From an uncultured Mycoplasmatota bacterium (GTDB lineage: Bacteria > Bacillota_I > Bacilli_A > RF39 > UBA660), in contig CAMNAC010000003.1 in NCBI GenBank assembly GCA_946530475.1, positions 1 to 36,594 of the forward strand: DNA of 36,594 nucleotides, read 5' to 3'. The notes under the pieces were generated by a model. It made no database searches and was not told the DNA's origin. It was given only the letters and a program-made list of their open reading frames with translations. Of this stretch, positions 5,268 through 6,908 are shown one piece after another. The first letter of the stretch is position 1. Every line of letters begins with the position of its first letter. The translations under genes were made by a program, and so were the position numbers.

Positions 5268-5618
5268 AATACTTTATAAGCCATGTTCTGTTCCTATTTC
5301 TAGGCGACAAACATTTATCTATCAATTACTTGATCCCAAAAGAAAATTCAGTTCTTTTCTTTCAAGCTCCCCTACCAAAATTTGGGTTTCTCACTCGTGG
5401 GGTTTACCGCGTTCCACTCTTTTCCTTTCGAAAAAGAATCGTCACTATGGCACTTTTATACCTAGTTTGACCATGGTTTCCTTTAGGTCATTTCGGAGCC
5501 GTTAGCTTACGCTACCAAAGGTTATTTTTTCCCTTTGCACGAACACTACAATCGTCGCAGATTGTGTGAGCATGGACTTTCCTCTATATTACAAGAATAT
5601 AGCGTTTGTCAAAGTATT
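5268..5618 (-). ncRNA. rnpB: RNase P RNA (bacterial type B)
   Basis: Minus strand contains GAGGAAAGTCCATGCTC near the 5' end and ACAGAACATGGCTTATA near the 3' end; termini pair (AATACTTT/AAAGTATT). Lies just downstream of gpsB as in Bacillus. Confidence 0.93.
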
Positions 5619-5620
5619 AT

Positions 5621-5944
5621 TTAATCTTTTCCATATATAATTTTTTCTAAATTTGATAAACGACGTAATACATCTGCACTACTAGATTCATTTCCTGTAC
5701 TATCTTTTAAAATTTCTAATTTTGTTCTAAGACTTCGAATCTCTTGTTTTAATTTCATATTTTCTTCAATTAAATCTTTTTTATCTTGTTCTTCTTCATT
5801 TAATATTTTAGAAAATTCTTCATAATCGCGAATAATAATATCTAAGAATTTATCTACTTCTTGTGGTCGATATCCTCTTGTGTCAATTTTAAATTCCTTT
5901 TCTAAAATATCCTTTGTTGTTAAAGTGATTCTTTCTTGGTACAT
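5621..5944 (-). CDS. gpsB: Cell-division protein GpsB (DivIVA-domain)
   Basis: DivIVA N-terminal motif (LTTKDILEKEFKIDTRGYRPQEVDKFLDIIIRDYEEF), 107 aa, next to rnpB. Confidence 0.92.
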   Translation of the reverse strand: MYQERITLTTKDILEKEFKIDTRGYRPQEVDKFLDIIIRDYEEFSKILNEEEQDKKDLIEENMKLKQEIRSLRTKLEILKDSTGNESSSADVLRRLSNLEKIIYGKD

Positions 5945-6016
5945 ATTTCCACCCCCGTATTACTATCTCTATTCTCTCAAAAAAAGATAGTTTTGTCAAT
6001 CGAAGGGTGCCCATAG

Positions 6017-6054
6017 AAAAAGACTACTTTTTTCTTTCTATGAAGCAAGTAGTC
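6017..6054 (-). terminator. Putative terminator of the 32-aa sORF
   Basis: Minus strand GACTACTT-17 nt-AAGTAGTC-TTTTT. Confidence 0.55.
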
Positions 6055-6122
6055 AGTTTTATCAAACGAACATCCTGAATCATATCATCAAATATTTTAT
6101 TTACGTGATGATAGTCATTCAT
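6024..6122 (-). CDS. Putative 32-aa small protein (MNDYHHVNKIFDDMIQDVRLIKLTTCFIERKK), not in ORF track
   Basis: ATG at 6122 preceded by SD-like AGAGGTGAT; TAG at 6026-6024 overlaps a terminator-like hairpin; promoter-like region and exact 0A-box match upstream. Confidence 0.5.
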   Translation of the reverse strand: MNDYHHVNKIFDDMIQDVRLIKLTTCFIERKK

Positions 6123-6173
6123 ATAATCACCTCTATCATCACTGTACCATATTAATTAATTGATTTCTTTTCA

Positions 6174-6181
6174 TTCGACAA
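6174..6181. promoter_or_regulatory. Candidate Spo0A (0A) box upstream of 32-aa sORF
   Basis: Exact TTCGACAA (TTGTCGAA on minus), ending 52 nt upstream of the sORF ATG. Confidence 0.4.
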
Positions 6182-6197
6182 AACTAGAAAAAATATG

Positions 6198-6908
6198 TTA
6201 TTGAATTTTCTTTTTTAATATTGGTTCTACTTCTTCTTTTTCATACAATTGATTTTTTAAATCTTCTCCTAATAATAAAATATTAAATGATTTATCCTTT
6301 ATTCGATTATAAATTCGAGCTTCTTTTGAAAGAGGATGATTTAAAGACTTTAAGTAATCACTTTTTGAAAATGATCTTCCTTTATATTGGATATCATAAA
6401 TAGAAGTTCCTAAGAAATAAATTTTTAAATCTTGGTCAACAATTACTTCTTTTATCATATCTTTTAGATCAAGTTCTTCAATTGCTTCCTTTAAAGAAGA
6501 TGAATGAATTTGTTTTTCTTTTTGTAACATACTTACTCTCTTTATCAAATCATCTAATTTGATAAAATATTTTGAACGAATCATCTCTTCATTCGCACAA
6601 ACAAAATCAAACTTTTTTTGTTCTTCTTTCGTTAAATTACGACTCATATCTAAAAAGCATAAGTTTTTTTCCTCCATAGAATAAAAAACACATCCTACTT
6701 GGATATCTGTAAACAGATTAAAAAACATTACCATATAGTCATCAATCAATTCAATTTCAGTGTTTGATTTAATATAACTTTTTTCATTTTTCAAACAATG
6801 AGATAACCAATTAATCTCTTCCATGTCTTTTGCAGGTAAAACTCTTGATACTTTTAGATTTTCATCGCGAAAATAATATCCATATTTTAAAAACTCTCTT
6901 TCCGTCAT
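6198..6908 (-). CDS. Hypothetical protein, 236 aa
   Basis: Intact ORF with AGGAGG-type SD and strong upstream promoter; no family recognised. Confidence 0.8.
   Translation of the reverse strand: MTEREFLKYGYYFRDENLKVSRVLPAKDMEEINWLSHCLKNEKSYIKSNTEIELIDDYMVMFFNLFTDIQVGCVFYSMEEKNLCFLDMSRNLTKEEQKKFDFVCANEEMIRSKYFIKLDDLIKRVSMLQKEKQIHSSSLKEAIEELDLKDMIKEVIVDQDLKIYFLGTSIYDIQYKGRSFSKSDYLKSLNHPLSKEARIYNRIKDKSFNILLLGEDLKNQLYEKEEVEPILKKKIQ

Follow-up and report, generated by a model that had tools for sequence, protein, structure and literature searches.

Sda, a helical hairpin of 46 aa, acts as a sporulation checkpoint in Bacillus subtilis, where SirA is known as a Spo0A-induced inhibitor of replication and MciZ as a 40-aa inhibitor of FtsZ, and the Spo0E-like phosphatases are characterised by a SQELD motif. 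Moreover, a Spo0A-activated promoter of the extended -10 type is said to have been described in B. subtilis by Chen et al. 2006. The consensus of the 0A box is TGNCGAA (PMC7643835), and in RF39 spoIIAB and spoIIE are reduced or absent, yet spore formation is predicted, with a different regulation (PMC10868615). Nothing on Spo0A, a small protein and gpsB together was found in the literature. Here, a small gene with a putative Spo0A-controlled promoter is described from a window of 36,594 nt (the whole stretch of DNA that was analysed) of an RF39-like uncultured bacterium. Its product would resemble Sda in being very small, helical and present when sporulation sets in, SirA in being a regulator that Spo0A induces as sporulation starts, and MciZ in size and sporulation context. 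It differs from Sda, which is DnaA-controlled and forms a two-helix hairpin, from SirA, which comprises about 148 aa in a globular fold, and from MciZ, which is Sigma-E controlled; similarity of the product to SirA or MciZ was not detected. The search of 59 family members against Pfam and NCBIfam returned no credible match. Membership of the Sda family was rejected for lack of a match to an Sda model, and a Spo0E-like phosphatase was discarded on the missing family-model match and the absence of SQELD from the homologue alignment. The PDB sequence search with the family stayed at chance level (top match Csm2, E 0.09).

The gene encodes a protein of 32 aa (MNDYHHVNKIFDDMIQDVRLIKLTTCFIERKK; 6024..6122, minus strand) and extends from an ATG at 6122 to a TAG at 6026-6024 behind the Shine-Dalgarno sequence AGAGGTGAT (6126..6134, minus strand); an SD-like sequence and the start codon are retained across the homologues. 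A sequence-only reading of the window had proposed this frame as a gene, and the parts which it listed were all recovered, namely TTGTCGAA at 6181-6174, the Shine-Dalgarno sequence at 6134-6126, the ATG, the TAG, a hairpin at 6054-6022 and a TTTTT. It had also named, beforehand, a lack of codon-level conservation in relatives as evidence against the gene; the frame proved to be conserved. For the core up to the terminator stem, 36 near pairs gave a dN of 0.10 and a dS of 0.85, i.e. a ratio of 0.12 that carries some downward bias due to the fact that the near pairs were picked by protein profile, and the differences were distributed over the three codon positions as 75/36/167. The pN/pS of the near pairs was 0.19 in frame, and the two shifted frames gave 1.08 and 1.25. 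The frame is under codon-level purifying selection, and the shifted frames are unconstrained. A T-Y/F near the C-terminus is conserved, for which the terminator stem accounts in part. On homologues and codon-level constraint, the 32-codon ORF is almost certainly a real protein gene.

Using a profile of six homologues, matches were obtained in 161 of 386 genomes of the RF39-like family at E <=0.1 (about 90 of these below 1e-3), and homologues are present in approximately one quarter of the family genomes; in an order-level sample, a 59-row profile matched 44 of 193 genomes. The alignment is nearly without gaps in the core, with the consensus I-E-x-I-F-D/N-E-M-I-E/D-D-I/V-K-Y-I-K-L-A-T. A scan of named genomes with a narrower alignment gave 11 named loci; the named carriers are MAGs of uncultured Bacilli or Tenericutes and include Candidatus Faecisoma merdavium, and together with the sporulation gene content they suggest RF39 as the order. 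Matches outside the RF39-like family, sought in 296 genomes sampled at class level, were weak and partial and none was convincing. Within the family, a homologue was undetected in many of the 386 genomes searched, where the protein is either dispensable or diverging fast. With this gene, uncultured gut Bacilli would gain a family of small sporulation proteins that has so far escaped annotation.

The 0A box TTTTGTCGAA (6174..6183, minus strand) has the core TGTCGAA. Taken alone, TTCGACAA is found 2 times in the window versus 1.25 expected, which is not significant and is in line with the earlier estimate of about one chance occurrence per window. The argument is carried by a putative 0A element that is longer than first described, the 14-mer CTAGTTTTGTCGAA. 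Among 87 distinct loci whose homologues were found by protein alone, 83 have this 14-mer at <=2 mismatches within 130 nt upstream (49 exact, 23 with one mismatch and 11 with two). The reversed motif was found before none of the 87 and never came within three mismatches, and shuffles gave a single occurrence in 1740, that one with two mismatches. Position frequencies of 86 homologues revealed that TTTT and CTAG are conserved, with a period of 10 bp from the main box, and in the anchored frequencies a degenerate copy of the form C.A.TTTT lies 10 bp ahead of CTAGTTTTGTCGAA. The upstream degenerate half-site of the window is TTTTTTCTAG (6184..6193, minus strand), 10 bp from the main box, and copy and 14-mer may be read as tandem 0A half-sites 10 bp apart. 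The box was additionally found, at <=3 mismatches, in 14 of 40 gpsB-upstream regions taken from genomes without a strong profile hit; 13 of these 14 boxes are followed 62-72 nt further on by an ORF of 29-43 codons, many of these ORFs with the pattern N-x-M-I-x-x-x-R/N-x-x-K. Since chance alone gives a few boxes with three mismatches in about 0.9 kb, these regions widen the family just tentatively, and the constant spacing to the short ORF is the better argument.

The extended -10 element TGGTACAGT (TGnTAnnnT; 6141..6149, minus strand) is conserved in 86 homologues at a fixed offset of 39-47 from the C of CTAG, and its hexamer is TACAGT (6146-6141). The TAATAT at 6154-6149, earlier taken for the -10 region, is present, but the element conserved across the 86 homologues is the TGnTAnnnT at 6149-6141. 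No TTGACA was seen in the anchored promoter frequencies of the homologues, and their start codon lies mostly 62-67 nt downstream of the C in CTAG. From this conserved anatomy, the transcript is predicted to start at about 6134. The combination of a 0A box with an extended -10 is like the promoter reported by Chen et al. 2006; the difference here lies in the 14-bp conserved element, the fixed spacing and the recurrence across the whole family.

In the 0.90 Mb of the genome to which the window belongs, CTAGTTTTGTCGAA has 4 exact copies (reversed control 0), located at the small gene, spoIIAA-sigF, a short STAS gene and, upstream in opposite orientation, spo0A, with no others. The sole copy with one mismatch, CAAGTTTTGTCGAA, lies between spoIIAA and sigF (C34:10684; L149:885) and suggests a second 0A element with a separate Spo0A input to sigF. 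The sites at <=2 mismatches were set aside (15 versus 12 for the reversed control). The motif also stands before spoIIAA-sigF, sigF and short STAS genes in relatives. When the genome of the window was searched at the DNA level with the intergenic region, a second place with 77% identity over 78 nt was found, which covers the promoter only and precedes the short STAS ORF (77 aa; C7:9188, L083) and then a YqfC-like ORF, both under the same element. Spo0A, SpoIIAB and SpoIIE were searched for with models, and the remaining sporulation names given to genes at motif sites, STAS and YqfC among them, were read from translations.

Neither a SpoIIAB above cut-off nor a full SpoIIE match was found in 25 family genomes, and our observation agrees with the pattern published for RF39 (PMC10868615). 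At the phospho-serine site, the SpoIIAA-like proteins of the family have DLKG, DIKG, DTYG, DQEG or DEEG (DLKG in the genome of the window) and five SpoIIAB-bearing relatives of the class have DSSG; the short STAS protein is also devoid of the phospho-serine. The spoIIAA-like STAS gene is followed directly by sigF with no spoIIAB between them (C34:10268-10697, L149), and the same order is found at five loci of relatives. Because SpoIIAB and SpoIIE are missing and the phospho-serine of the SpoIIAA-like proteins is lost, early sporulation control appears rewired in the family. The locus points to a rewired sporulation onset without SpoIIAB and SpoIIE, and with a clean lineage-specific Spo0A element the early sporulation regulon would become readable from genomes alone. 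The peptide itself might be a new component of this altered sigma-F control, e.g. a regulator that binds sigma-F or STAS directly and replaces the classical partner switch; besides the losses just described, its confinement to the RF39-like family and the promoter element common to spoIIAA-sigF speak for such a role. However, this is a correlation within a single clade, many family genomes without SpoIIAB are also without a detected homologue, and nothing in the peptide sequence hints at binding to sigma or STAS, which leaves this role improbable.

Control by Spo0A, which had been suggested from the placement of the 0A box, is supported because the same element precedes spo0A, spoIIAA-sigF and the short STAS gene and Spo0A is encoded in the genome (Spo0A_C, PF08769, E 2.3e-41); binding and activation by phosphorylated Spo0A would be direct. 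The small gene thus shares with Spo0A-activated genes the TGNCGAA box, a box common to spo0A and spoIIAA-sigF of its own genome, and an encoded Spo0A. A Spo0A_C domain was found in 354 of 386 family genomes, and no Spo0A match was obtained in four genomes with gene or motif, perhaps due to their draft state. These gaps in element-bearing genomes, and a 14-mer that exceeds the textbook box of 7 bp, would suit another regulator binding the shared element; as this element contains TGTCGAA, precedes spo0A, spoIIAA and sigF and has a layout of two half-sites at 10 bp that fits a Spo0A dimer, such a regulator is decidedly improbable. Spo0A control of the small gene is, on the shared element, very probable.

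The AlphaFold model of the peptide is one helix (residues 3-31, mean pLDDT 90), and the amphipathicity of the core is just moderate. The product is probably a Spo0A-controlled small protein of early sporulation. We propose a monocistronic gene for an essentially all-helical protein of 32 residues in the early sporulation regulon of the RF39-like uncultured lineage. Bound to the tandem 0A site, which lies immediately upstream of the -35 region, phosphorylated Spo0A would activate the extended -10 promoter. The resulting mRNA would be very short, with a 5' UTR of about 10-12 nt and a terminator that overlaps the ORF at its 3' end, and would be translated. The peptide, presumably helical in vivo, could then dock on a protein partner at the pre-divisional or early sporangial stage, as small sporulation regulators such as Sda and MciZ do; this mode of action is slightly more probable than not, and any partner, or a positive or negative sign of its regulation, would be a guess.

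The small gene ends in an intrinsic terminator (6017..6054, minus strand); the last codons contain the 5' arm of this terminator, and TTTTT follows. A terminator-like hairpin was found 3' of 66 of 90 homologues and overlaps the ORF in 60 (shuffles 21/90). The next gene on the minus strand is gpsB (DivIVA domain, PF05103, E 2.2e-12; 5621..5944), which has a promoter-like site of its own, TTGACA-17-GAGAAT (5999-5971). Of the earlier description as a self-contained unit beside gpsB, the unit stands; gpsB adjoins it in the window and is not part of it, and the commoner neighbour of the homologues is recU, which is divergent and upstream in 63 of 86. The overlap of the ORF end with the terminator and the position of gpsB in the window would suit control of gpsB by the ORF as a leader peptide or attenuator. 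Such a function is very unlikely, since gpsB has its own promoter-like site, is found in the approximately 1 kb downstream at 36 of the 80 testable loci and is absent from that span at 44, the hairpin is kept at two loci where gpsB is not adjacent, and the amino-acid sequence is conserved away from the hairpin; on this inconstant adjacency and the codon statistics it was rejected. The reading of the transcript as a small regulatory RNA with an incidental frame is just as unlikely and was rejected by the codon statistics, as a short transcript with terminator and a fold better than shuffles (z -3.3) stand against purifying selection in this frame and none in the shifted ones, a retained SD-like sequence and start codon, and a search of Rfam with gathering and relaxed thresholds that gave nothing credible. 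In the neighbourhood, a 236-aa protein without a Pfam match above cut-off is encoded upstream of the small gene (6198-6908), where most relatives have the divergent recU, and a class B RNase P RNA (RF00011) lies directly downstream of gpsB (5272-5617).

In one relative (G011), five exact copies of CTAGTTTTGTCGAA precede a sequence that is repeated, appears to be non-coding and has TATAAT as a good -10; this sequence is possibly a repeated Spo0A-driven RNA or a mobile element. In another (G051, locus L010, 1575-1694), a different ORF of 39 codons lies behind the same motif and is directly followed by an ORF of 115 codons, and the regulon of the putative Spo0A element may comprise more than one small protein.
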